Source of the DNA: Clostridia bacterium
GTDB lineage: Bacteria > Bacillota > Clostridia > Lachnospirales > Lachnospiraceae
DNA length: 64,000 nt
Assembly: GCA_910574835.1 (NCBI GenBank)
Contig: CAJTDE010000012.1
Span: 1 to 64,000 of the forward strand
Direction: 5' to 3'
Part shown: positions 1-12,879 of the stretch, one piece after another
Position numbering within the stretch: the first letter of the stretch is position 1
How the letters are laid out: every line of letters begins with the position of its first letter
Made by a program: the position numbers and the translations under genes
Notes under the pieces: generated by a model
The model's input: only the letters and a program-made list of their open reading frames with translations
The model's database searches: none
Told to the model about the DNA's origin: nothing

Positions 1-118
1 CTCTATTTTCGTACCAGATACAGAGAAATGTCCATTTCCTTGGCTCATTTATCTGAGAGTAACAATAAAAATTCCTTGAATTTTTAAGGAAAATCACTTG
101 ACAATATAGGGAGGAAAA

Positions 119-292
119 ATGATGTTAGGAACAGGGGGAAACGCAGTTACGGTTGTAATTGTTTTGGAGTTCATACTTGCAATTTACAGTGTGGCTCTTG
201 TGATGAGCACAAAGAAAAAATGGCTGAAGATCGTACATATTGTACTTGCTGTTTTTTGGGTAGTTTTGGCGTTGTTAAATATTTTCTTATGA
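119..292 (+). CDS. Small two-helix membrane protein, unknown function
   Basis: An open frame of 57 codons starts at ATG 119 behind a strong ribosome site (GGGAGG at 109-114) and ends with TGA at 290-292. The product has two hydrophobic stretches (about residues 9-29 and 38-57) separated by a short basic loop (KKKW), so it should be a helical hairpin in the membrane with no other domain. It lies just upstream of the glycosylation block, separated by a 9-bp hairpin. Small membrane proteins (Asp4/Asp5, SecE/SecG-like) occur in accessory Sec loci, but I see no sequence match that would support that name; this is only a positional idea. Confidence 0.55.
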   Translation: MMLGTGGNAVTVVIVLEFILAIYSVALVMSTKKKWLKIVHIVLAVFWVVLALLNIFL

Positions 293-326: not shown

Positions 327-363
327 TAGTTAGATTATGAATCAATTTATGCGGGAGCGTGCC

Positions 364-2517
364 ATGAATGTGTATATTACAAAACTAAACGGGATGTCCT
401 TTACGAGCACGGAGCAGTATGCTCAGCATATGGCGGCAGATATTGCACATTCGTTAGGAATCAGGGAAATGGGTATCTATCGCTATTATGCGGAGGCAGA
501 GAGCGCAGAAAACCGTACAAGGCGGTTTGACGGGATTATTGCGGGAATCAATGCGGGAGATATTGTGATCTGCCAGTTCCCGACATGGAACGGTCTGTCA
601 TTTGAACGGGCGCTGGTGAGACATATCAAGGCCTATCATGGGCGTATTATCATCTTTATCCATGACGTTGAAGCTCTGATGTCGGACGCACACCACAAGG
701 ATTTGCAGGGCACAGTGGAATTGTATAATGAGGCGGAAGTATTGATCGTCCCGTCTCTCGGAATGCGGATGTTTTTGACAGAGCATGGCATTCGAACCGG
801 AATGAAGTTTGTCATCCAGGAGATGTGGGATTATACGGCACTGCCAGGAGCTTTGGGGGCTGGGACATGGAACAGAGAAATTCATTTTGCGGGAAATCCC
901 GACGGTATTCATTTTCCAAACGCATGGGAGTGCGAAGTTCCCCTGAAAGTATATTCTGATTCGGAATGTCATGGAACCTATGTGCGGAAAATGGGATGGC
1001 TGGCGCCGGAGCGCCTTTTGATGGAATTAGCAAAGGGCGGTTTCGGGTTGGTGTGGTATGGAAATGAGGAATGGCGACGGTATTTGTCGGTGAATAACAG
1101 TTTGAAACTTGGTGCGTATTTTGCCGCCGGAATACCGGTAATCGTACCTAGGGGAATTTCAAGCCAGAGCATAATTGAGAAAAATCATCTTGGTATCGCG
1201 GCGGACACGCCGGAGGAGGCGGCGGAAGCCATAAAAAACATGACAGAATCGGACTATCAGGTATATTCGGCAGCAGTAGCGCAGTTTGCCCCTTTGGTAA
1301 GGGAAGGATTTTTTACAAAGAAGTGTCTGTTAGACGCTATTCACATGTCCATGCGAAATGATATGTATACGTATTCTGAGTCGAATGAGGCTTACAGGAT
1401 GTCTGAATGTATATTTTCATATGTCTGCCTCAAGGAATCTTATAAAAATAATCTGGCGTTGTCATGGACTTTTCAGGGCGAGGCGGAAGGATTTTTGATC
1501 TATGATGCGGATTCCGGGAAAGCAGCGGGGGAGGTTTCCAATGTGCTGGAACATTATTTTCTTTTGGAAGATTATCCGAAAACAGCCCGGTTTATTGTGA
1601 AGGCTTATGTCAGGACACTAAAAGGAAAAATGATATTGGCGGAGTCCGGAGTGGCAGCCGTATCCGAAATGCTTCCGATAAAACCCGTTGTCAGTTTGAT
1701 CATGCCGGCATATAATGCGGAGAAATATATTGCCAGAAGCATTGATACTGCGCTGGCGCAGTCGTTTCCGGACATGGAGCTTATCATTGTGAACGACGGC
1801 AGCACGGATGGAACGCAGGCGGTGCTTGATTGGTATCGGGAGCGGTATCCGCAGGTGAAAACTTTTTATAAGGAAAACGGAGGGCAGGCCACTGCCAGGA
1901 ATATGGGAATCGAAAAGGCGGAGGGAAATTATATTGCTTTTATGGACAATGACGATACGCTCAGGCCGGATATGATAGAGAGATTATATATCTCAATTGT
2001 GAAAAATGACTGTGATATCGCCATGACATCGGTATACATGCTGACAGGAGAGAAATATGAGGATATGACAAGTTATCCCATGACTGAGGATACGGCTGTT
2101 TCCATAGAAGTGTTTTTTGAGTACTATATGAGAAGTCTTTCGCCGGTGCTTTGGAATAAATTGTATCGCGCTTCCCTTGTAAAGGAACATCCTTGTGCTG
2201 TCCGGGTTACGTTCGAGGATGATGCATGGACTCCTTATGTTTTATCATATGCCGATCGTGTGTGTTACATCAATGCACACCTGTATGAATATGACAGAAG
2301 CAGCAGAGGCAGCACGGCAATCCACGCTTCATGGAACAGGCCGATAGAAGAAAAGTTTCTTGATCACAGGGAATTGGTTTTATTTTTCCTTGAGAATGGA
2401 AATCAGGAGAGAAAAGACTTGCTGAAAAAGCTTGCTTTGGTTTATGTGTCGGCGTTTCCGTATTCTGGTTCCTATGTTGGATATAGTGAATTGAGAAAAG
2501 AGATAGAGCAAATGTGA
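364..2517 (+). CDS. Two-domain glycosyltransferase: Gtf3-like GT-B plus GT2, first copy
   Basis: A 717-residue fusion. Residues 1 to about 335 resemble Gtf3, the enzyme that adds the second sugar (glucose) to O-GlcNAc on serine-rich-repeat adhesins: an N-terminal ITKLNG segment, a QFPTWNGLSFE segment and IIIFIHDVEAL. Residues about 355-435 form a beta-rich module resembling an Fn3 domain (ALSWTF, GFLIYDADSG). From about residue 441 there is a GT2 GT-A domain with MPAYNAEKYIARS, NDGSTDG and a DNDD metal site near residue 527. I chose ATG 364 rather than ATG 337 because GGGAG precedes it and because it gives exactly the length of the next, paralogous gene. The acceptor is inferred, since no adhesin is visible. 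It is cytoplasmic by lack of a signal or membrane segment. Confidence 0.85.
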   Translation: MNVYITKLNGMSFTSTEQYAQHMAADIAHSLGIREMGIYRYYAEAESAENRTRRFDGIIAGINAGDIVICQFPTWNGLSFERALVRHIKAYHGRIIIFIHDVEALMSDAHHKDLQGTVELYNEAEVLIVPSLGMRMFLTEHGIRTGMKFVIQEMWDYTALPGALGAGTWNREIHFAGNPDGIHFPNAWECEVPLKVYSDSECHGTYVRKMGWLAPERLLMELAKGGFGLVWYGNEEWRRYLSVNNSLKLGAYFAAGIPVIVPRGISSQSIIEKNHLGIAADTPEEAAEAIKNMTESDYQVYSAAVAQFAPLVREGFFTKKCLLDAIHMSMRNDMYTYSESNEAYRMSECIFSYVCLKESYKNNLALSWTFQGEAEGFLIYDADSGKAAGEVSNVLEHYFLLEDYPKTARFIVKAYVRTLKGKMILAESGVAAVSEMLPIKPVVSLIMPAYNAEKYIARSIDTALAQSFPDMELIIVNDGSTDGTQAVLDWYRERYPQVKTFYKENGGQATARNMGIEKAEGNYIAFMDNDDTLRPDMIERLYISIVKNDCDIAMTSVYMLTGEKYEDMTSYPMTEDTAVSIEVFFEYYMRSLSPVLWNKLYRASLVKEHPCAVRVTFEDDAWTPYVLSYADRVCYINAHLYEYDRSSRGSTAIHASWNRPIEEKFLDHRELVLFFLENGNQERKDLLKKLALVYVSAFPYSGSYVGYSELRKEIEQM

Positions 2518-2554
2518 ATGTGGTACGCAGAAATCGTTTAATATGGAGGCGGAG

Positions 2555-4708
2555 ATGAATTTATACATTACTCGGTTAAATGGAATAGAAAACCAGCCAA
2601 AATTCTTGCAGTGTATGACTGCGGAAATAGCACATTGGCTTGGTTTTAGGGAAATGGGCATCTATTATTACAATGCAAATGCGGAAAGCGATGGAAATCG
2701 GTCGGTTCGGTATGACGGTATGATAGCGGGCATATCGGCAGGAGATGTCGTGGTTTTCCAATTCCATACATGGAATGGGCTGAAGTTTGAACGCGGCCTG
2801 GTAGATCGTGTCAAAGCGTATCACGGACGTGCTGTTATTTTCATTCATACCGTAGAGGCGCTGATGATTAGAAGCAGCGGTTTTATGCTGGGAGAAACGG
2901 TGGAACTCTTTAATCAGGCAGAGGTATTGATTGTGCCTTCCTATGCCATGAAACGGTTCCTGGTGGATTCGGGTATACGGCCTGATATGAAGTTTGTCGT
3001 TCAGGAGATGTGGGATTTTACGACGGGTATAAACTTTACGGGAGAGCCTGTATTCCGGAAGGAAATTCATTGTGCCGGAGGTTTTGCCCCGAATATGGTA
3101 CGGAACTGGAACAGTGATGTGGCGCTGAAACTATACAATTCTTCTATGGCTGTTCCGAACCGGAATGTCACTAACATGGGTACGTTAAAGGCAGAGGAAC
3201 TGCTGATTGCTTTATCCAAGGGCGGATTCGGCTTGGAATGGTATCATGATGAACAGGCGTACAAGTATATGAAATACGGCAATTCGTTATCCCTGAGCAG
3301 ATATCTCGCAGCCGGAATACCGGTGATTGTTCCTGCAGGGATTTCCTGCCGGAAATTGATAGAAGATAACCATCTCGGGCTTGTGGTGAATACTCCGGAT
3401 GAGGCTGTGAGAGCCATTGAAGCTATGAGTGAACCGGAATATCGGAAGTATGTTCAGCATGTGGGACAATTCGCCCTTGCTTTGCGAAATGGGTATTATA
3501 CGAAAAAATGTCTGATCGATTCCGTCCAGGCGCTTTTCAGGGAGGATCTGGGAAAGACCTTTTTACAGGAAAGTGATATTTATGATCTGGATGATTATAA
3601 GTTCGTATCGGCGGTATTAAAGAAATCTTACGGCGGAAAGCTTGTCTTGTCGTGGAACCTGGAAGGGGAAGGAGACGGCTTTTTCCTATATGATGCATCC
3701 GGAAGGATGATTGAGGAGACGGAAAACAGCCGTCAGCATTATTTTCTTGTAGGAGGCCGGGAGGAGACAGAGGGCTTTCAAGTCAAAGCTTATATCAATA
3801 CACCGAAAGGAAAAATGATCGTGGCAAAGTCCGCACTTGTCCAGCTGGGTGCAGGAGAGTATGAAAAACCCCTGGTCAGCATAGTGATTCCGGCATACAA
3901 TGCACAAGACGGTATTGCCAGGAGCATCGACACAGTATTGGCTCAGTCTTTTCCTGATGTGGAAATTATCGTTGTTGACGATGGAAGTACGGATAATACG
4001 CCGAATATCGTTGACTGGTATGCTTCAAACTATCAGAATGTCACGGCAATCCATCAGGAAAATGCGGGAGTTCAAGCGGCAAGAAACATGGGAATAGCAC
4101 ATGCAAGAGGTGAATTTACCGGTTTTATAGACAGTGATGATATGATTCGGCCTGATGTGGTGGAAAAGATGTATCATTCCGTGAAAAAGAATCATTGCGA
4201 TATCGCAGTTATGTCCGCATATAAGATAGATAATAGGGGGTATGAGGAATTCATGCGGTATCCGCTCAAAGAAGATGCGGCCATGCCGGTGGAAAATTTT
4301 CTTCAGATGTATGCTTCCGAAGCGTATGCACTGCCGGCGCTCTGGAATAAATTATACCGCACTTCCCTTGTGAAAGAACATCCGCTGCCTCAGATTGTGT
4401 ATGAAGATGAAGCTTGGACGCCTTACGTGTTGTCTTATGCAGAGACAGTTTGCTATCTGAATATTCATGGTTATGAATACGACAGAAGTACGTGCAGCGG
4501 TTCACTTGTAGATAAATGGGCGGGGAAATCAAGAGATGAAGTGCTTGAGGACCATAAACGGTCGATTATATTTTATTTGGAGCATGGAAATCCTAAAAGA
4601 AAGGAATTGCTGAAAAAACTGGCGGATAATGAGCTGGCCTATTTTGGAAGGGTAATGGCATATCCTAAATATGAGGAAGTGAGAAAGCAGATAGCAGAGC
4701 TGGTATGA
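2555..4708 (+). CDS. Two-domain glycosyltransferase: Gtf3-like GT-B plus GT2, second copy
   Basis: Paralog of the preceding gene over its whole length and also 717 residues when started at ATG 2555, which has GGAGG five bases upstream; the ATG at 2543 overlaps that site and is unlikely to be used. Domain order is the same: Gtf3-like domain (ITRLNG, FHTWNGLKFE, VIFIHTVEAL), a beta-rich linker module (LVLSWNLEGEGDGFFLYD), then GT2 from about residue 440 with IPAYNAQDGIARS, DDGSTDN and a DSDD metal motif near residue 526. The tandem pair probably arose by duplication and then diverged, so the two may add different sugars to the same glycan. Substrate inferred from neighbours, not seen. Confidence 0.85.
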   Translation: MNLYITRLNGIENQPKFLQCMTAEIAHWLGFREMGIYYYNANAESDGNRSVRYDGMIAGISAGDVVVFQFHTWNGLKFERGLVDRVKAYHGRAVIFIHTVEALMIRSSGFMLGETVELFNQAEVLIVPSYAMKRFLVDSGIRPDMKFVVQEMWDFTTGINFTGEPVFRKEIHCAGGFAPNMVRNWNSDVALKLYNSSMAVPNRNVTNMGTLKAEELLIALSKGGFGLEWYHDEQAYKYMKYGNSLSLSRYLAAGIPVIVPAGISCRKLIEDNHLGLVVNTPDEAVRAIEAMSEPEYRKYVQHVGQFALALRNGYYTKKCLIDSVQALFREDLGKTFLQESDIYDLDDYKFVSAVLKKSYGGKLVLSWNLEGEGDGFFLYDASGRMIEETENSRQHYFLVGGREETEGFQVKAYINTPKGKMIVAKSALVQLGAGEYEKPLVSIVIPAYNAQDGIARSIDTVLAQSFPDVEIIVVDDGSTDNTPNIVDWYASNYQNVTAIHQENAGVQAARNMGIAHARGEFTGFIDSDDMIRPDVVEKMYHSVKKNHCDIAVMSAYKIDNRGYEEFMRYPLKEDAAMPVENFLQMYASEAYALPALWNKLYRTSLVKEHPLPQIVYEDEAWTPYVLSYAETVCYLNIHGYEYDRSTCSGSLVDKWAGKSRDEVLEDHKRSIIFYLEHGNPKRKELLKKLADNELAYFGRVMAYPKYEEVRKQIAELV

Positions 4709-4739
4709 ATGGAATCCTATTGAAAGAAGAGGGGAAAAT

Positions 4740-5657
4740 ATGAATATTCTGATTGCTGCAAATACGAAATTTATGGGACCGACTTCTGTAATGGTGTATT
4801 CCCTTTGTTGCAGCCATAGAGATACGGAGGTAGATATATATCTTGCTTACCATGATTTGAGGGGACAAGATATTGAAAGACTGCAAAAGATTATGTCTTG
4901 TTTTGGGTTGAAAAAACTCCATTTGTTGGATGTGGGGGAAGAATTTAAATCAAAGGTCGTAGCAACACAGCGGTTTTCGTATGAAACATATTACCGTATT
5001 CTTGCAATAGATATGCTGCCAAAAGAAATGAAACGCATCCTGTATTTGGACGCAGACATGCTGGTAAAAAAAGACTTAACAGAAGTTTATGAAACGCCTA
5101 TGAATGAACGGTGTCCTTTTGTTGTTTGCGCTGATATGATGGGACCGACAAGAGGCGGAAATAATAGGGGAGTGATCCCGGAGGATTGCCTGTATTTTAA
5201 TGCGGGTTTCATGTTGATGAATTTAGAATATTTGAGAAAAAGGAACAGTGTAGGTTATATTTTGGATGCTTTTTGCAGAGAACAGAACCGGTATCCGTAT
5301 CTTGATCAGGATGTATTAAATCATATGTATTATGATAAGGTTCAGTTTGTGCCGTGGTCATTATATAACTTATTTCCGCAATGGTGGAAAGTGGATATGG
5401 AAGCACTATCGCATGGGGAAATTCGATATGCCAGCTATCCGGATATGAATAACTCATCTATCAATCAGGCGGAACGCTTTGTTGATGCAACGAGGCAGAT
5501 GCGGGATAATGCTTATATTATACATTATTTGGCTTTTTTTAAACCTTGGCTCTATCGAGATAAACCGATATACTCAGATCTGAAAATGTATGCAGGGCTT
5601 TGGTTTGACTGCGAACGGGAAATGTACGAAAACGTAGATGGATTAGAACGGCTGTAG
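4740..5657 (+). CDS. GT8 family glycosyltransferase, first copy
   Basis: 305 residues, the full length of a bacterial GT8 (retaining galactosyl/glucosyltransferase, LgtC/GspA type). The sequence shows MNILIAANTKF at the N terminus, the DxD metal site in ILYLDADMLV near residue 105, FNAGFMLMNL, and DQDVLNHMYY. The usual C-terminal HYxGxxKPW motif reads HYLAFFKPW here, with Ala in place of the Gly. GT8 enzymes in SRR-adhesin loci extend the glycan after Gtf3. The start at ATG 4740 follows AGAGGGG. It sits 31 bases after the Gtf3/GT2 fusion and 35 bases before its own paralog, so the genes are probably one transcript. Confidence 0.9.
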   Translation: MNILIAANTKFMGPTSVMVYSLCCSHRDTEVDIYLAYHDLRGQDIERLQKIMSCFGLKKLHLLDVGEEFKSKVVATQRFSYETYYRILAIDMLPKEMKRILYLDADMLVKKDLTEVYETPMNERCPFVVCADMMGPTRGGNNRGVIPEDCLYFNAGFMLMNLEYLRKRNSVGYILDAFCREQNRYPYLDQDVLNHMYYDKVQFVPWSLYNLFPQWWKVDMEALSHGEIRYASYPDMNNSSINQAERFVDATRQMRDNAYIIHYLAFFKPWLYRDKPIYSDLKMYAGLWFDCEREMYENVDGLERL

Positions 5658-5692
5658 CAGTAAAGCTATTTTGTTCAAAGGAGGAAATAAGG

Positions 5693-6619
5693 ATGAATAT
5701 ATTGATTGCTACAAATACAAAATTTATGGGGATAACTTCTGTGATGGTGTATTCTCTGTGCTGCAGTCATGAAGATGTAGAGGTGGATGTCTATCTTGCA
5801 TATCATGATTTGAGGGAAGAAGATATTGAAAGACTGCAAAAAATAGTTTCCGGGTTTAAACAAAAGAGGCTGCATCCGTTGGATGTGGGAGGGGAATTTG
5901 CAGAGAAAATGTCAATAAAGGATCGATTTTCGTGCGAAACATATTACCGTATTTTAGCAGTAGATATGCTGCCGAAAGATATGGATAGGATTTTATATTT
6001 AGATGCGGATATGTTGGTAAAAAAGGATTTGACAGAGGTATATGAGACCCCAATGGATGAGACATGTCCTTTTGTGGTTTGTGACGACATTGAAGGGCAT
6101 GCGAGAGGGAGTTATGAATCGACGTTGGATAGAGTTGCAATTCCTCATAACTTCAAATATTTTAATGCGGGTTTTATGTTGATGAATTTAAACTATCTAA
6201 GAAGGAGGAATAGCGTTGGCTATATAGTAGATGCGTTTTATAGAGAGAGATACCCATTTCATGATCAGGATATCTTAAATCATATGTATTATGATAAAGT
6301 TCAATTTGTGCCCTGGACCTTATATAATTTACCGCCGGAATGGTGGAAAATTGATATTGAAGCTTTGTCAAGGGGGAGCATTCGTTTTGCCAGTTATCCG
6401 GATATGAATAATCCGTCTATTAATCAGGCAGAGAGGTTTGTTGATGCGACAGCGCAGATTCGTGATAACGCTTGCATTATTCATTTTTTTGGAATTTTAA
6501 AACCTTGGCAGTACAGAAATCAACCGATGTATTCCGATCTCGCATTGTATGCAGGACTTTGGTTTGAATGCGAAAAAGAAATGTATGAAAATATTAAGGA
6601 CTTAGAGCGTTTGATATAG
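5693..6619 (+). CDS. GT8 family glycosyltransferase, second copy
   Basis: 308 residues, a close tandem paralog of the gene just upstream, with long identical runs by eye. It has the same ILYLDADMLV DxD site, FNAGFMLMNL and HDQDILNHMY segments, but keeps a canonical HFFGILKPW C-terminal motif, unlike the first copy. The start at ATG 5693 has a near-perfect AAAGGAGG site. The two copies differ most in the stretch around residues 130-150, which in GT8 enzymes lies near the acceptor or sugar pocket, so different specificity is plausible but not shown. Confidence 0.9.
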   Translation: MNILIATNTKFMGITSVMVYSLCCSHEDVEVDVYLAYHDLREEDIERLQKIVSGFKQKRLHPLDVGGEFAEKMSIKDRFSCETYYRILAVDMLPKDMDRILYLDADMLVKKDLTEVYETPMDETCPFVVCDDIEGHARGSYESTLDRVAIPHNFKYFNAGFMLMNLNYLRRRNSVGYIVDAFYRERYPFHDQDILNHMYYDKVQFVPWTLYNLPPEWWKIDIEALSRGSIRFASYPDMNNPSINQAERFVDATAQIRDNACIIHFFGILKPWQYRNQPMYSDLALYAGLWFECEKEMYENIKDLERLI

Positions 6620-6729
6620 AAGTGGATAAAATACCCAAAATGCAGGGTAGATATTTCACAAGAAGATTTCTGATAGAAACGGTTCATCAGATGCTCAGGG
6701 GCGACCTGGCTTGAGAAAAGGGGGATTAG

Positions 6730-8715
6730 ATGGCGGTTTATATGTTTGTGCAAACGATGAAACGCATGAGAGACAGCGTTGATGTTATTAAGAAGCAGCT
6801 ATTGGAAGAAACAGTTTCTCCGGTCAGGTATATTTTCACCACAATCACCGAGCTGAAAGATATCAGAGAATGTGAAAAGGTTGGAATAGAGGCTGAACAG
6901 ATAGTCAGTATGTATCAATGCTTTACAGATAATCATGGCTTGGATTGCTCCGTGAAGGCAGAAGATAAATTGAATGAATTAAAAAGTAATTTGCAATATA
7001 CATATGCAAACCGAATGGCTGGTTCGGTCAGCCTGGTAAAAGGCGTATATGAGATTGCCAGTATGATATTAGATGAAGAAAATGGAGAGTATTGCAGGGA
7101 AATTTCCTACTATAATTACACGAGACTTCTTCGTAAGGAAATTTATACAAACGGCATTGCGTATGTCGACTACTATATAACGGCAAAGGCGGAAGGCGGA
7201 TTGTATGCAAAGCTTACGAGACGCACGTTTTATAATGTGGATGGTTCGGCAGCATATGACCAGATATTTGAAGGAGAAAAGGAATGGTTCGTGTTTCCGG
7301 ATGGCGGTATATTTACGAAAGAACAATTGGCAATGGAGTTTATAAAAAGGCTGGACTTGTCGGAGCAAGATACAATTCTGCTGGATGATTCCGTGCCGGA
7401 TGAGTTTGTACAGGCTGTCTTCACATTTGGAAAAGCGGCGCAAATTGTGATATTAGCTCATTTTGAGCGAGATAGGAAGGATGATGCAAAGAAGTGTTTG
7501 TATGGATGGTTTCCATATGCAGAGGCTATTCACACCATAGTAGTGTCAACAGAAGGGCTAAAGAAGCTATTGCTAAAGGAATTAGAAAAATACCATTGTA
7601 AGGTTCCCGATATCATGGTGATACCAATGGAAAGTGAATTCGCTTCAATGGCTTTATATGAAGCGAATGAGGGAAATCTTGTCTTGTTATGGCATTACAA
7701 CGGAAACGCAGATGGATTTCGGGTATATGATGAGTTTGGTAAACGAATATGCGAAAGAAGGGATATTTATCAGCACTATTTTCTAATAAAAGGATGTGGG
7801 AAGAAAAAAGGAATTGTAATAAAGACGTTTGCCGATACATTAAAGGGGCCCGTGGTAACGGCGAAATCAGAAACGATATATGTTTCTGGCAATAAGAAGG
7901 TAAATGTTATGGGGATATTGGAGACGCTTGAATATGTAAGGGATAAACGGATTTCTGCTGCACGTTTTGGAGATGGCGAAATTAAGCAGATGTGTGGGGT
8001 ATCCATTGGATATCAGGAATACGATGAGGAATTGGCAAAAAGGCTGAAACAAGTTATTACCATGCCGGATAATAATAAGCTATTAGTGTGCTTGCCAGAT
8101 ATTTTTGAAAAAATGGACCGCTATAAGGCGATAGTTGATTTGACTTGGAAGCAACATTTAAAATGGCATCAGGATGTTTGGGCGGAGATTATTACAAGTG
8201 AAAAATATTATGGTAATGCATTTATATCCCGCCCGTATATGGATTTAGCAGATAAGTCAATGTGTGGAAAATATTTTCAAAGTATAAAAGAACTTTTTGC
8301 AAATGAAGATATTTTAATCGTGGAAGGTTTCTATTCACGGTCAGGGGTGGGAAATGATTTGTTTGAAGGGGCAAGGTCGGTAAAACGGATCATCTGCCCT
8401 TCACGCAATGCCTATAGCAAATATGAGGTGATTTTGGATACGGTCAGAAAGCACGGAATGGATAAGCTGATTTTAATTATGCTGGGTCCGACAGCGAAAG
8501 TATTGGCATATGATTTGGCTCTTGAAGGATATTGGGCTGTAGATATTGGGCATATTGATTCGGAATACGAGTGGTATAAGATGGGTGCTGTGGATAAAAT
8601 AAGGATTGGACATAAACATACAGCGGAATCGGAATTTGCTGATGAGCATATTACACTACAAAATGATGATACATATGCCAGGGAAATCGTGGCAATGTTG
8701 TCGGATGAATCATAA
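6730..8715 (+). CDS. Multidomain glycosyltransferase ending in a GT-D (DUF1792) domain
   Basis: 661 residues with an unusual architecture. Residues about 120-290 resemble the non-catalytic N-terminal half of the GtfA in this window: LTRRTFYNVDGSAAYDQ matches LRRFFNEDGTVAYEE, and the stretch after it (KRLDLSEQDTILLDD) matches SRLKLTRQDVVLIDG. Residues about 315-390 carry the same beta-rich module found in the two fusion enzymes upstream (LVLLWHYNGNADGFRVYD). From about residue 395 to the end is a GT-D domain (ARFGDGEI, RPYMDLADKS, IVEGFYSRSGVGNDLFEGA, HIDSEYEWYKMGA), the fold first described for the glycosyltransferase that adds the third sugar to Fap1. The catalytic GT-B half of GtfA is absent. 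Start at ATG 6730 behind AAAGGGGGA. Residues 1-90 match nothing I recognise. Confidence 0.85.
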   Translation: MAVYMFVQTMKRMRDSVDVIKKQLLEETVSPVRYIFTTITELKDIRECEKVGIEAEQIVSMYQCFTDNHGLDCSVKAEDKLNELKSNLQYTYANRMAGSVSLVKGVYEIASMILDEENGEYCREISYYNYTRLLRKEIYTNGIAYVDYYITAKAEGGLYAKLTRRTFYNVDGSAAYDQIFEGEKEWFVFPDGGIFTKEQLAMEFIKRLDLSEQDTILLDDSVPDEFVQAVFTFGKAAQIVILAHFERDRKDDAKKCLYGWFPYAEAIHTIVVSTEGLKKLLLKELEKYHCKVPDIMVIPMESEFASMALYEANEGNLVLLWHYNGNADGFRVYDEFGKRICERRDIYQHYFLIKGCGKKKGIVIKTFADTLKGPVVTAKSETIYVSGNKKVNVMGILETLEYVRDKRISAARFGDGEIKQMCGVSIGYQEYDEELAKRLKQVITMPDNNKLLVCLPDIFEKMDRYKAIVDLTWKQHLKWHQDVWAEIITSEKYYGNAFISRPYMDLADKSMCGKYFQSIKELFANEDILIVEGFYSRSGVGNDLFEGARSVKRIICPSRNAYSKYEVILDTVRKHGMDKLILIMLGPTAKVLAYDLALEGYWAVDIGHIDSEYEWYKMGAVDKIRIGHKHTAESEFADEHITLQNDDTYAREIVAMLSDES

Positions 8716-8741
8716 ATGGAACAGCTTGAGGAGATTGAAAA

Positions 8742-10028
8742 ATGATATGTATTTCTGGTAAATACAATGAAGGTGTAAAGAAGCTGAGGCAGACGCTGGA
8801 TTGCTTGGGGTCTGCGACAAAAATTATGGTTTTTGAGGATGATGGTTTTTTGCCAAAAGGAATTTCATCTCCTTATGAGTATTACGTTTCCAAACAGAAT
8901 TGTGAACAGCATGTAGAGAGAGGGCTGCATTATGATTCTCTGCAACTGCCGGAAGGCTGGAGTGTCTGGCCAGATGGCCTGGCTGTCTGGGAGAGGCATA
9001 TGGGAATTTACTATATGGGACGTGAGCGGGCGGCCATATATTTTCGTGCGATGCAATCAAGCTATGCGGAAAATCTTGCAGAACCACTAAAAAACAGAAT
9101 CGTCCAGCGCATTGAGTGGCGCATGGAAGATGGCCGGATATATAGAGTAGATTTTTACAATAAGTATGGTTTGAAATATGCGAGTGAATTTCGCAGTGCA
9201 GACGGAGCAGTGGAAACGAAAGTGTTTTATTCTGACACAAATCAGGAAGTTATCGTGGAATATCCGGAAAATGATGTGGTTACATTGTTGGAGCGCGGGG
9301 AGGTAAAAGCTTTTTTTAATTCATGGAAAGAGTTTATAGAGTATTTTATATCAGAAGTAACTGCGGATGAGAAGATGGCATTGCTCATTCAGGATCAAGA
9401 GATGCTGGAAACATTGGATATAAAGCCAGATGCGGAACAGATATGGGGACTCGCATTGTGTCCTGATGATGATTTATTGTTTCAATACGAAAATCTGGGA
9501 GGGAAGAACGGCTTTCGGTTTTATGAGATACCGGAGCATTATCCGGTAAATGCGGCAAAAAGTGAGGCGCTGATTCTGACGAGGTACGACAGAATTGAAA
9601 AGATAGAGGAACTGACGCAGGAATTACCGGAAGTGACATTCCATATCGGAGCAAACACGGCGATGTCAGACCGGCTTATGAATTTGGAAAAACAGGGAAA
9701 CGTGAAGCTTTATCCCGGTCTAAGTCAAGATGTTTTGGATGAGCTATGGGAAAAATGCGACTTTTATCTGGACATCAATCTTTATGGGGAAATCCGCGAT
9801 GCGGTAAACGTGGCGCAGCAGAAAAATTTGCTGGTGATTGGATTTGAAAATACCGTACATCACAAGGAACTCCTCATAAAAGAGTGTGTGTATCCGGCAG
9901 AAGAATATAAAAAAATGGTGCTGGATATCAGGCATATGTTGCAAAACCCTAAATGCGCGCAGGAATTGTTGGCGGTGCAACAAAGGAAGAAAAAAGAGTT
10001 TTATAAGAAGATGAGTATTCTGAAATGA
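8742..10028 (+). CDS. gtfB: GtfB-like accessory glycosyltransferase subunit, divergent copy
   Basis: 428 residues. The first part follows GtfB: EDDGFLPKGISSPYEYY, then IEWRMEDGRIYRVDFYNKYG and a YSDTNQEVIVEY segment; the C-terminal Rossmann-like part has ALILTRYDRIE, DFYLDINLYGE and LVIGFENTVHHKEL. GtfB is the substrate-recognising, catalytically inactive partner of GtfA in the enzyme that puts the first O-GlcNAc on Ser/Thr-rich adhesins. This copy differs from the gtfB at 11557: its N-terminal part is longer, and the central FWQGAIGDEIPGNMQ segment of the other copy is replaced by an unrelated stretch. Start at ATG 8742 after GAGGAG. Its stop overlaps an ATG of the next frame (ATGATG at 10025), so translation is probably coupled. 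Confidence 0.75.
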   Translation: MICISGKYNEGVKKLRQTLDCLGSATKIMVFEDDGFLPKGISSPYEYYVSKQNCEQHVERGLHYDSLQLPEGWSVWPDGLAVWERHMGIYYMGRERAAIYFRAMQSSYAENLAEPLKNRIVQRIEWRMEDGRIYRVDFYNKYGLKYASEFRSADGAVETKVFYSDTNQEVIVEYPENDVVTLLERGEVKAFFNSWKEFIEYFISEVTADEKMALLIQDQEMLETLDIKPDAEQIWGLALCPDDDLLFQYENLGGKNGFRFYEIPEHYPVNAAKSEALILTRYDRIEKIEELTQELPEVTFHIGANTAMSDRLMNLEKQGNVKLYPGLSQDVLDELWEKCDFYLDINLYGEIRDAVNVAQQKNLLVIGFENTVHHKELLIKECVYPAEEYKKMVLDIRHMLQNPKCAQELLAVQQRKKKEFYKKMSILK

Positions 10029-10063
10029 TGAAAAAAATCCGAGTGGGGAGAGGAAAAAAGAAT

Positions 10064-11560
10064 ATGATATACAGCTTTCATCATTTTTATTATTGGTCAA
10101 AAGGCGGTGTGGAGTCAGGGATGGCATATCGGGCGAAGATATTCCGCACCCTGGGGTTGGAAGCCAAATTTGTTTTTGCAACTACGTTCCCAAACGCCAA
10201 CATATGGCATGAAATGCAAATGCTGGGCTTTTTGGATTCAGAAGTTATATGGATGTACGGTTTTTTTTCAGATTGCAGGATTTCACCGGTAACTTATGGG
10301 CTGAAGCAGCTGGAAAATACGTTTGGCGGAAAAGAGTATGCCATTTCCGGAAATGGCGATGTGGTAAAATATGTCTTTCCGGGAGAGCGCTATTATTATC
10401 AGGCATATCTGGCGCCCGGTACGGACGATGCCGTACACAGGGTGGAAATCATTTCGAACGATCGGCTTATCCGAAAAGATTATTATACATACTGTAAAAT
10501 TTATTCGGAATACTATACGCCGATGGAAAATTATTCCCATCTGTATCTGAGAAGGTTTTTTAACGAGGATGGAACGGTTGCCTACGAGGAAGTGATGGGA
10601 AATGAAGCGATGGTAGATGATGTGGTTTTATATAAGTTTCCGGATCGTCTGATTTATTCACGGGAAGAGTTGGTGGGCTACATGATGTCCCGCTTGAAGC
10701 TTACCAGGCAAGATGTCGTCCTGATAGACGGGGAACCGGGAAAAATACATCGTTCAGCTTTTATCTTGAATGCATTTCCGGCAAAAGTTGGTTTTATTCT
10801 TCATGCGAATCATTATATATGCAGCGATGAAGACCATGTTTTTTGGTACCGGATTTATGAATATGCGTTGTCCCATCCTGAAAAAATTGATTTTTATGTG
10901 ACTAATACAGAGGCGCAAAGCGCCCTGTTAAGAGAGCAGTTTAAGCGGTACAAAGAGGTAGAACCTTTAGTAGTGACATTGCCGGCAGCAGGTTTGGATA
11001 AATTAAAATATCCGAAAAACGGCAGGCGCAAACATGCTCTGATTTCTGCAGGACGTCTGGCACCGGGGGAAAAGAATATGAACTGGGTTATCGAGGCGGC
11101 GGTAGAAGCGAGGAAGAGCGTGCCGGATTTGACGCTCGATATTTACGGCGAAGGGGAAGAAGAGGGTAGGTTAAGAGACTTGATACGGCAGTTAGAGTGT
11201 GGGGATTATGTACATCTCTGCGGTTTTCAAAAGCTGGACGAGGTGTATCAGGAGTACGAAGCTTATGTGTCTGCATCCTGGTCAGAAACGTTCGGCGTGA
11301 CGTTATTGGAAGCGGTTGGATCCGGGCTTCCTATTGTTGGGTTTGATTCACCATATGGAATGCAGACGTTTGTCGATGAAGGAGAAAACGGATATAGAGT
11401 TCCGGTGGGGGACGTAGACGGGTTGGGGAAAGGAATCATCAGGTTATTCACGGAAGCGGACATGGAAGGGTTTCGTCAGCATTCTTATGAAAAGGCCAGT
11501 GGTTATCTTATGGAGGCGATGGAAAAGAAATGGGAGAATGTGCTTGGGAAAATGAAATGA
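10064..11560 (+). CDS. gtfA: Accessory Sec system O-GlcNAc transferase GtfA
   Basis: 498 residues when started at ATG 10064 (MIYSFHHFYYW, the usual GtfA N terminus, with AGAGG 10 bases upstream); an in-frame ATG at 10025 overlapping the previous stop would add 13 residues. GtfA is the catalytic GT4 subunit that moves GlcNAc from UDP-GlcNAc to Ser/Thr of SRR proteins. The sequence shows GGVESGMAYRAKIFR, the beta-sheet insertion (RKDYYTYCKIYSEYY, LRRFFNEDGTVAYEE), VGFILHANHY, the donor-site RLAPGEKNMNW, and the retaining E-x7-E motif ETFGVTLLEAVGSGLP. The neighbours on both sides are GtfB-like partners. All family landmarks are intact, so it should be active. Confidence 0.93.
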   Translation: MIYSFHHFYYWSKGGVESGMAYRAKIFRTLGLEAKFVFATTFPNANIWHEMQMLGFLDSEVIWMYGFFSDCRISPVTYGLKQLENTFGGKEYAISGNGDVVKYVFPGERYYYQAYLAPGTDDAVHRVEIISNDRLIRKDYYTYCKIYSEYYTPMENYSHLYLRRFFNEDGTVAYEEVMGNEAMVDDVVLYKFPDRLIYSREELVGYMMSRLKLTRQDVVLIDGEPGKIHRSAFILNAFPAKVGFILHANHYICSDEDHVFWYRIYEYALSHPEKIDFYVTNTEAQSALLREQFKRYKEVEPLVVTLPAAGLDKLKYPKNGRRKHALISAGRLAPGEKNMNWVIEAAVEARKSVPDLTLDIYGEGEEEGRLRDLIRQLECGDYVHLCGFQKLDEVYQEYEAYVSASWSETFGVTLLEAVGSGLPIVGFDSPYGMQTFVDEGENGYRVPVGDVDGLGKGIIRLFTEADMEGFRQHSYEKASGYLMEAMEKKWENVLGKMK

Positions 11561-12879
11561 TTTTGCTGTTTGACAGTTATGACGAAGAAAGCCGGTTTTG
11601 GCATGAGTCCATAAAGCGGGCGGGATACGACCACGTGGCAATTGTCGTACAGGAGGATGATTTTTTACCGGATGGGATTTTCCCGGCGTATGACCTGATT
11701 CTTGGAAATTGTCGTGATAAGGTGAGGAAGGAAAGATATTTCAACGAGATTGCGGTGCCGGATTCCTGGGACATTCATGTCGGGAGTGATGAATCGGGGA
11801 GCGTTTCTTTTCGGCGGGAAGAAAAAGGGACGATTTATTATGTGGAGGCGGAAAAAAAGCGTCTGGTAAAGGCGGTGGATTGGTATGACAGGAAAGGAGT
11901 CGTCCGTTTCCGGGATCATTACAATCGGTATGGAGATCTCTGCGCCCGGACGGTATATGATAATCAGGGGAAACCCATGAGTAAGACATGGTTTTCTTCA
12001 CTGGGACAGGAAATTATTGTGGAAAACCTTGTCAGCGGAGATATCATTCTAAACGATGAAGGCCGGGAGATGTTATTCCAAAAGAAACGAGATGTCATTA
12101 TTTACTATTTTAAAAAGCTTGGTTTTGCAGAAAAAAGGTTTTTGATCAATTCCTTGTCTACGCCGCTCTTTATCTTAACCGGGCTTCCCGGAACAGAAGA
12201 AAAGCGAGATTTGCTGTTCTGGCAAGGGGCGATTGGTGATGAAATTCCGGGAAACATGCAATGGATTCTCAATGGAGGTTCCGGCCGCATAGGAAAAATC
12301 ATTGTGCAAAGGGCAGATACCTATGACAAGCTGATTCAATTAGGCGCTAAGAAGGAAATGTTGTATAAACTGGGATTCATTTATCCGTTTCAGAAAGAAA
12401 ATCGACACAAACTCAAAGCGCTCATCTGCACCCGATTTGATAAAATAGAGCATAGCAGGGAATTGATTGAAGCGCTTCCTGATATGCATTTTCATATCGC
12501 AGCGCCCACCGTGATGTCGCCGTTGCTGACAGATTTGGAGAAATACGGAAATGTAAGTTTATATCCGGCAGTGGCCGCAGATGTTTTGGAGCAATTGTTC
12601 CAGGATTGTGATTATTATTTTGACATCAATTATTATGGAGAGTTTGCATCTGCGAACTATAGGGCATTTCTTCATAACCAGTTGATTTTTGCATTTGAGG
12701 AAACCGTGCATGAAAAAGATTATGTGGCAGAGGAGCATATTTACCCCATAACGGAATTTGAAGTGATGAAAGCGGATGTCAAGTCAATTATGAGCGATGA
12801 CGCTTTGATGGAATGGCATTTGGACAGGCAGCATAAGCGAGCCGCGGCAGAAGACCAGGAAAGATATAGAAGGATTTAA
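11557..12879 (+). CDS. gtfB: Accessory Sec system glycosylation chaperone GtfB
   Basis: 440 residues from ATG 11557, whose ATGA overlaps the gtfA stop, the standard gtfA-gtfB coupling; the in-frame ATG at 11530 lies inside gtfA and is rejected. Family landmarks are MILLFDSYDEES, VQEDDFLPDGI, VKAVDWYDRKGVVRFRDHYN, SLGQEIIVENLVSGDIIL, DLLFWQGAIGDEIPGNMQ, ALICTRFDKIEHSRELIEAL and YYFDINYYGEF. GtfB binds the adhesin acceptor and stabilises GtfA, and together they form the first glycosyltransferase. This is the canonical copy; the gene at 8742 is a second, divergent one. It is the last gene of the glycosylation block, and no obvious terminator follows. Confidence 0.92.
   Translation: MILLFDSYDEESRFWHESIKRAGYDHVAIVVQEDDFLPDGIFPAYDLILGNCRDKVRKERYFNEIAVPDSWDIHVGSDESGSVSFRREEKGTIYYVEAEKKRLVKAVDWYDRKGVVRFRDHYNRYGDLCARTVYDNQGKPMSKTWFSSLGQEIIVENLVSGDIILNDEGREMLFQKKRDVIIYYFKKLGFAEKRFLINSLSTPLFILTGLPGTEEKRDLLFWQGAIGDEIPGNMQWILNGGSGRIGKIIVQRADTYDKLIQLGAKKEMLYKLGFIYPFQKENRHKLKALICTRFDKIEHSRELIEALPDMHFHIAAPTVMSPLLTDLEKYGNVSLYPAVAADVLEQLFQDCDYYFDINYYGEFASANYRAFLHNQLIFAFEETVHEKDYVAEEHIYPITEFEVMKADVKSIMSDDALMEWHLDRQHKRAAAEDQERYRRI

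Follow-up and report, generated by a model that had tools for sequence, protein, structure and literature searches.

The window analysed here comprises 64,000 nucleotides of a Lachnospiraceae genome (assembly GCA_910574835.1, contig CAJTDE010000012.1, referred to as C12), and the system in question is a run of glycosyltransferase (GT) genes at its left end. Both homology and gene order identify the window as the downstream, glycan-extension half of a serine-rich repeat (SRR) adhesin/accessory Sec (aSec) locus of Lachnospiraceae. Streptococci, staphylococci and lactobacilli are the best-known carriers of the aSec system. The novelty here, as far as the sequences indicate, lies in the attachment of the GT2 and GT-D domains to copies of adhesin-binding enzymes. 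Our favoured, moderately confident reading is that dead or halved priming enzymes act as docking heads, which hold the extension domains on the adhesin. The wider proposal, for and against which the scales are about level, is that of a plug-in system of Lachnospiraceae aSec loci, in which silent docking heads (a dead Gtf3, or a half-GtfA clamped by its own GtfB) would bring interchangeable GT2 or GT-D tails to the adhesin.

Eight genes, all on the + strand, fill positions 337–12879, preceded by a short open reading frame (ORF) and the end of a repeat. In the following, G, L and C handles denote genomes, loci and contigs, respectively.

1..106 (right boundary approximate), no strand: terminal part of a repeat, probably a mobile element, at the contig edge, based on repeats in the own genome and on the spacing in G400.
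119..292, +: ORF of 57 amino acids (aa) with two hydrophobic stretches, kept directly downstream of gtfB1; no family match.
337..2517, +: ORF1, a Gtf3a head (10–340), a fibronectin type III (FN3)-like linker (about 370–447) and a GT2 domain (450–726), based on profile and structure matches.
2543..4708, +: ORF2, a Gtf3b head (Thr for the catalytic Asp, Ser for the phosphate-contacting Lys), an FN3-like linker and a GT2 domain, based on profile matches and alignment.
4740..5657, +: GT8 glycosyltransferase (PF01501, 118 bits).
5693..6619, +: GT8 glycosyltransferase (PF01501, 119.7 bits).
6730..8715, +: ORF5, a GtfA acceptor half (about 1–302, with EBD), an FN3-like linker (about 310–388) and a GT-D/DUF1792 domain (389–660), based on profiles, AlphaFold2 and Foldseek.
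8742..10028, +: ORF6, GtfB3 (TIGR02919, 252.6 bits, under the cut-off of 338.3; PDB GtfB 5e9u).
10025..11560, +: GtfA2, a second, full-length GtfA with E-x7-E present (TIGR02918, 511 bits, under the cut-off of 574.6).
11530..12879, +: GtfB2, adjoining GtfA2 (TIGR02919, 424 bits, over the cut-off).

The start of ORF1 at 364 is likelier than that at 337, as GGGAG lies ahead of 364 and homology begins there. The first-pass annotation of the window had already listed Gtf3-like, GT8, GT-D and GtfA/GtfB homologs, all of which were borne out by strong family matches (4w6q, PF01501, DUF1792, TIGR02918, TIGR02919), and its assignment to an SRR-type glycosylation set agrees with both homology and gene order. 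It overlooked that ORF1 and ORF2 are Gtf3::GT2 fusions and ORF5 a GtfA-N::GT-D fusion, as well as the presence of two GtfB genes and of the 57-aa ORF.

The same annotation had presented the locus as one without its adhesin or accessory Sec genes. Within the window this holds, inasmuch as no SRR, secA2/secY2 or asp gene was recognised in the ten ORFs scanned, up to 15.1 kb, but it is wrong for the genome, in which all of them are found on another contig, C45. Base 1 of the window is base 1 of C12 (124 kb; the genome has 5.0 Mb in 133 contigs). A TIGR02918 profile search of the same genome detected a GtfA over the cut-off on C45, where the gene order is SRR protein, SecY2, Asp1, Asp2, Asp3, SecA2, GtfA1 and GtfB1, and which terminates 132 bp past gtfB1. 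SecA2 (945 bits; cut-off, 930), Asp1–3, GtfA1 (732 bits) and GtfB1 (482 bits) each exceed their cut-offs, and the top hits of SecY2 are two SecY2 models, both under the cut-off (218 of 353 and 187.6 of 249.6 bits). The adhesin is 1937 aa long, with 693 Ser, 332 Thr and 139 STSESL units. Thus, the secA2, secY2 and asp1–3 genes that had been suggested for an upstream search are present, albeit on C45 rather than in the window, and so is the large Ser/Thr-rich protein, which has no LPXTG-type motif, contrary to what had been expected.

In G400, which belongs to the same genus (five genes were compared with those of the own genome and are 96–99% identical in DNA), a single contig carries SRR, SecY2, Asp1–3, SecA2, GtfA1, GtfB1, the 57-aa ORF, both Gtf3::GT2 fusions, both GT8 genes, GtfA2 and GtfB2. 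The order gtfB1, 57-aa ORF, Gtf3::GT2 gene is consecutive in G400, G342, G283 and G1122, with a mere 24 bp separating the first two in G400, and tblastn placed the 57-aa ORF downstream of gtfB1 in G400, G342, G283, G304, L093, L095, L096 and G1122. Because G400 is contiguous and the 57-aa ORF follows gtfB1 in the relatives, it is very likely, judging from these relatives, that C45 adjoins C12. This agrees with the suggestion of the first-pass annotation that the missing genes are to be found immediately upstream of position 1.

The last 112 bases of C45 (L007:19262-19373) occur at 12 places in the own genome among the matches listed, itself counted; 11 of these lie at, or at most 4 bases from, a contig end, and the twelfth is on C83. 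Likewise, the first 105 bases of C12 have 12 own-genome places among the matches listed (including itself and a partial one), in four cases at the very first base of a contig. Since both ends are repeated, a repeated element appears to be present between gtfB1 and the 57-aa ORF, separating C45 from C12 in the own genome, where G400 is contiguous. A direct overlap of the two contigs was rejected: they have no sequence in common, both ends being repeats. As the adhesin and aSec genes are on C45 and both halves form one operon in G400, the apparent absence of these genes is an assembly effect, and the idea of an orphan glycosylation locus without adhesin was rejected. The repeated element just ahead of the 57-aa ORF could split the operon transcript in two.

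The GtfA match of ORF5 is confined to the acceptor half (residues 20–302; PDB 5e9t) and covers only positions 24–306 of the 500 in the TIGR02918 profile, after which GT-D follows. The GtfA donor half (E-x7-E) is absent, and ORF5 is not a complete GT-B enzyme. Residues 389–660 match DUF1792 structures (E-value, about 1e-86), and the tail scores 341 bits on TIGR03728 (GT-D/DUF1792), over the cut-off of 290.75, with a Foldseek target template modelling (TM) score of 0.95 to 4phr. In the AlphaFold2 model of ORF5 (mean pLDDT, 85; pTM, 0.56), the head (about 32–300) and GT-D (from 389) are mostly confident, and the linker is stranded and of low confidence. The ORF1 linker, modelled alone with 15 relatives, has seven strands (pLDDT, 87.5), and no Pfam model was over threshold for the linker. 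Its top Foldseek hits are mostly fibronectin type III domains; these matches are weak, and for that reason the linker is termed FN3-like.

ORF6 is a GtfB by its match to PDB 5e9u and falls into the GtfB3 clade (9 of 46 GtfB rows; Shimodaira–Hasegawa-like approximate likelihood ratio test, SH-aLRT, 98); it may form a complex with ORF5. No full-length homolog of ORF5 was found in G400, which also lacks ORF6: by ORF calls, only 2 bp separate the second GT8 gene from GtfA2, compared to 3.4 kb in the window. The G–C content (ORF5, 0.39; ORF6, 0.42; neighbouring GT8 genes, 0.37–0.39) is uninformative as to gain of the two genes in the window lineage versus loss in G400. The heads and linkers of ORF5 and of L038 (G262) share 45% identity over about 390 residues.

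The head of ORF1 matches PDB 4w6q with an E-value of 1.6e-78. For LrGtfC, Asp101 has been described as the conserved catalytic residue and Lys251 as a contact of the donor phosphates (PMC12809243; this article and the others below are cited from excerpts of their text). Residues were mapped by alignment to 9hu9, Leu1 of that article being residue 3 of the chain. The ORF1 head retains Asp and Lys at the two places, and the ORF2 head has Thr and Ser, i.e., both residues are lost. Both are missing from the Gtf3b-type heads of all six loci (window, G400, G283, L093, L094 and G1122), of which that of G283 is free-standing and that of G1122, fetched after the rule had been seen, was assigned to Gtf3b by best hit and without a tree. 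Gtf3a-type heads have Asp and Lys in 4 of 6 loci. The best reading of these substitutions is that the Gtf3b head of ORF2 is catalytically dead. Since ORF5 has lost the donor half and ORF2 the active-site residues, their heads are unlikely to be kept for the old catalysis; docking would be the simplest reason for their conservation, and oligomerisation alone is another.

A rival explanation is that these are ordinary bifunctional fusions, in which every head still catalyses its own step and the fusion merely channels successive steps. The intact Gtf3a head of ORF1 fits such a scheme, and dGT1, in which GT-D and GT2 act in turn, provides a known precedent (PMC5063993; PMC5207161). Nevertheless, an ORF5 head devoid of its donor half cannot be a GtfA-type transferase on its own, and the loss of both residues from Gtf3b heads in 6/6 loci is hard to reconcile with it as well, so this explanation appears doubtful.

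All four combinations of the heads (Gtf3 and half-GtfA) with the tails (GT2 and GT-D) were found in the window and its relatives. The latter were collected by a contig scan with two short peptide patterns (8 loci; Lachnospiraceae, Dorea, Roseburia or Acetatifactor) and by genome searches, with duplicates counted once (L092 = G262, contig of L038; L121 = L093; L127 = L091).

Gtf3::GT2: ORF1 and ORF2 of the window, G400, G342, G283, L093, L094, G1122 and G1125.
Gtf3::GT-D: G1125, inside an aSec locus, and G292, in a stretch without aSec genes.
GtfA-N::GT2: L089 (short C-terminus), L090, L091 and G262.
GtfA-N::GT-D: ORF5 of the window.

In a tree of 29 GT-D rows, the window GT-D is nearest (67% identity) to the one on the Gtf3 head of G1125 (bootstrap/SH-aLRT, 100/98) and next to that of G292, likewise on a Gtf3 head (99/97). 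The GT2 tails of the linker-bearing genes form a clade of 13 against 11 outside GT2 rows (95/98); one of the 13 is the tail end of the G400 ORF1 homolog, cut by the stretch fetched, and L089 (short tail) and the window ORF2 (near-identical to the G400 copy) were left out of this rooted tree. Inside this clade, the Gtf3a tails are monophyletic (99/94), and the tail on the Gtf3 head of G1125 clusters with those on the GtfA heads of G262 and L090 (87/88). What is claimed from the rooted tree is that GT2 tails on Gtf3 heads and on GtfA heads share a single clade, in which they intermingle. In an unrooted tree of 14 tails, those of GtfA heads and of Gtf3b lie on one side, opposite those of Gtf3a (100/100), and the ORF5 linker is found on the GtfA-head/Gtf3b side of an unrooted tree of 16 linkers (100/99).

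The five fused GtfA heads form one clade (SH-aLRT, 99) inside a 12-row GtfA3 clade (99) in a tree of 44 rows; the GtfA- and GtfB-head trees were built by a quick method with SH-aLRT values only. Other members of the GtfA3 clade are complete GtfA proteins with E-x7-E (L093, L094, L095 and G358; L096 is nearly the same as L095), and two further full-length GtfA genes are present in G1125. The simplest reading of this topology is one loss of the GtfA donor half, along with an exchange of tails. A tblastn search on DNA revealed a gene with GtfB3 as the best match in 11/11 loci that have a GtfA3-clade head (window, G262, L089, L090, L091, L093, L094, L095, L096, G358 and G1125; 10/10 if the near-identical L095 and L096 are merged), that of G358 lying near a contig end. 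By the same method, GtfB3 was found in 0/13 other aSec genomes fetched at length (G400, G342, G006, G264, G150, G283, G292, G312, G153, G304, G185, G252 and G1122); since the contigs of G342 and G006 span only about 6 kb and G150 and others are truncated by contig ends, a GtfB3 could be present beyond the sequence in these. Genomes of the g154 genus code other than G153, as well as G727 and G1016 (pieces of a few kb), are not included in the 13. G722 (L069) was excluded from the 11 as ambiguous; it has a divergent GtfA3-like gene, and the best hit of its GtfB is GtfB3 (166 bits), which fits the pairing. The loci were picked by GtfA-type queries, so the pairing is a count and not a frequency. 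The pairing was counted on DNA because the filter applied to the ORFs discards genes with >60 bases of overlap with a longer one (e.g., GtfA of G264), and the counts held.

The constant company of GtfA3-clade heads and GtfB3 genes is also what would be seen if ORF5 and ORF6 were a priming complex that puts the first sugar on Ser/Thr by GT-D chemistry, given that GtfA/GtfB complexes glycosylate the Ser/Thr of SRR proteins (PMC6973325). This is improbable, as the characterised DUF1792 enzyme adds the third sugar, onto Glc-GlcNAc (PMC5207161), the closest GT-D sits on a Gtf3 head, and GtfA1/B1 and GtfA2/B2 are encoded besides. That the target is another protein or a cell-wall polymer is very hard to credit: GT-D-part matches do occur in many genomes without aSec reference genes beside them (within short flanks only), and the Gtf3::GT-D gene of G292 (L053:9327-10985) lies in a 20-kb stretch without aSec genes, but in G400, G262, G283 and G1125 such fusion genes belong to the same operon as the SRR and aSec genes.

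According to the literature on streptococci, GtfA/B adds GlcNAc, Gtf3 adds Glc, DUF1792 adds Glc, and the GT2 of dGT1 adds GlcNAc (PMC5207161). By homology, the sugar order in the present locus would be similar: GtfA1/GtfB1, and probably GtfA2/GtfB2, would attach the first GlcNAc to Ser/Thr residues of the adhesin, the second sugar would come from Gtf3a, and the GT2, GT-D and GT8 domains would extend the chain ahead of export by SecA2/SecY2/Asp1–3. The GT2 and GT-D domains would do so not as free-standing enzymes, but fused to heads that appear to be copied from two adhesin-gripping enzymes, Gtf3 and the acceptor half of GtfA. The head may dock on the SRR glycopeptide, the FN3-like linker would let the tail reach neighbouring glycans, and a tail swap would result in an altered glycan. 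The locus identity, the domain architectures, the residue loss in Gtf3b, the presence of related tails on unrelated heads and the linkage of GtfA3 heads with GtfB3 are supported directly; the docking of the heads, a complex of ORF5 and ORF6 and the sugars added by the tails are what we infer.

Several observations weigh against docking heads with exchangeable tails. The evidence is based on sequences and models, and the join of C45 and C12 is inferred by homology to relatives. Asp is missing from some Gtf3a heads (Asn in both copies of G342, Glu in L094). The Gtf3::GT-D head of G1125 has Glu and Asp at the Asp101 and Lys251 places, and with Glu for Asp it might retain some activity; the Gtf3::GT2 head of the same genome keeps Asp and has Glu for Lys. 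In G1122, the 24 kb fetched contain a Gtf3b fusion but no Gtf3a, meaning that a dead/live Gtf3 pair is not obligatory, and the idea of an obligatory Gtf3a/Gtf3b pair was rejected. The FN3 match of the ORF1 linker is weak (best Foldseek E-value, 0.008; TM, about 0.5), and no linker of this type is seen in the Gtf3::GT-D genes of G1125 and G292. The rooted GT2 tree leaves the order of the groups open, unlike the unrooted grouping of GtfA-head with Gtf3b tails; a sister relation of the two, weakened by rooting with outside GT2 rows, is therefore not claimed. Lastly, the GtfA3-like gene and GtfB of G722 fall in no clear clade, and the GtfB3 of L094 is truncated.

A family draw of 397 genomes yielded two with a GtfA head continuing into the linker (the own genome and G262); an order draw of 392 and a class draw of 391 yielded one each (the own genome in both cases), and 2 of 12 genomes of the G262 genus have such a head (G262 and G1128). 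A phylum draw of 398 genomes yielded two with PF22145 (GtfA EBD); the family, order, class and phylum draws overlap. Of 25 genomes or records retrieved for this locus, which were selected for GtfA-type matches and all come from the own family as judged by kinship or title, 23 were found to have secA2 or asp3. A microbiome paper calls Asp1–3 Streptococcus-specific (PMC7676259, in the excerpt available). Among the open-licence papers listed by literature searches, none describes these fusions in its title or abstract opening, which does not prove novelty, and the same sources yielded nothing relevant on aSec in Clostridia or Lachnospiraceae.

The 57-aa ORF, with copies at 119-292 of the window, L064:18187-18360 and L040 about 2324-2491, directly after gtfB1, has two hydrophobic stretches around a KKK-containing loop. 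In Streptococcus gordonii, asp4/asp5 are found at this place after gtfB1 (PMC5076819). Based on position and on the two-helix layout seen by inspection, the ORF is a candidate SecG-like (Asp5-like) subunit. Profile searches, which did not include a direct comparison with Asp5/SecG, gave no Pfam family over threshold and no NCBIfam hit, so that a Pfam-recognisable Asp4/Asp5 was rejected.

The C-terminus of the own adhesin has an EVPLA...WWSWIP tail resembling those of the G400, G283 and L094 adhesins. Four SRR proteins (L007:3358-9171, L064:2381-8092, L066:1917-6407 and L094:11643-15965) have a common N-terminal signal-like KAN..LKAAG.AG and end in an EV(P/A)LA motif plus a WWSWIP membrane-type tail, which may constitute an atypical surface anchor. 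The genes immediately preceding that of the own SRR protein encode a GGDEF protein and a BTAD-type regulator (L007:930-3161); G400 (L064:1-2184) has two similar-sized ORFs upstream of its SRR gene, a likeness by size and place alone. Further chimeras of aSec loci include a Gtf3 followed by the C-terminal part of GtfB (519 aa, L095:13175-14734) and a GtfB::Gtf3 (816 aa, L043:9478-11928).

The locus bears on two questions, how extension enzymes find and hold the long SRR polypeptide, and how the glycans diverge between strains. The natural combinations offer a ready-made experiment on both, with the same head bearing different tails, related tails on different heads, and binding-only heads, and the modules may serve as parts for targeted protein glycosylation. 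If the docking reading is true, a GT-B enzyme has been halved, its protein-binding half surviving as a targeting module for an unrelated glycosyltransferase fold.

Similar to the Fap1 cluster of Streptococcus parasanguinis (Gtf1/2, Gtf3, dGT1, GalT2, Gly), the locus encodes GtfA/GtfB, Gtf3, GT-D (DUF1792) and a GT2 matching PDB 5hea (GalT1), which we take to be the GT2 half of dGT1. In that cluster, GT-D and GT2 are fused to each other (PMC5063993), whereas here each is on a Gtf3 or half-GtfA head, an FN3-like linker joins head and tail, and an extra GtfB is found beside the half-GtfA. Compared to the GtfA–GtfB priming complex (5e9t/5e9u, 4pqg), the ORF5 head corresponds to the acceptor half over 20–302 and ORF6 to GtfB, but the donor-binding half is replaced by the linker and GT-D. 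Structures of GtfC/Gtf3 (GT113) of Limosilactobacillus reuteri and streptococci can be aligned over almost their full length with the heads of ORF1 and ORF2, which are distinguished from that enzyme by their fusion to GT2 and, in ORF2, by the loss of the Asp101 and Lys251 equivalents. As with GtfE/GtfF, the second priming pair of Streptococcus salivarius, a second GtfA/GtfB-type pair accompanies the standard one; the genes for those two lie outside the secA2/Y2 locus, and the excerpt of PMC6973325 does not present them as fusions, whereas the pairs reported here are part of the aSec locus itself.

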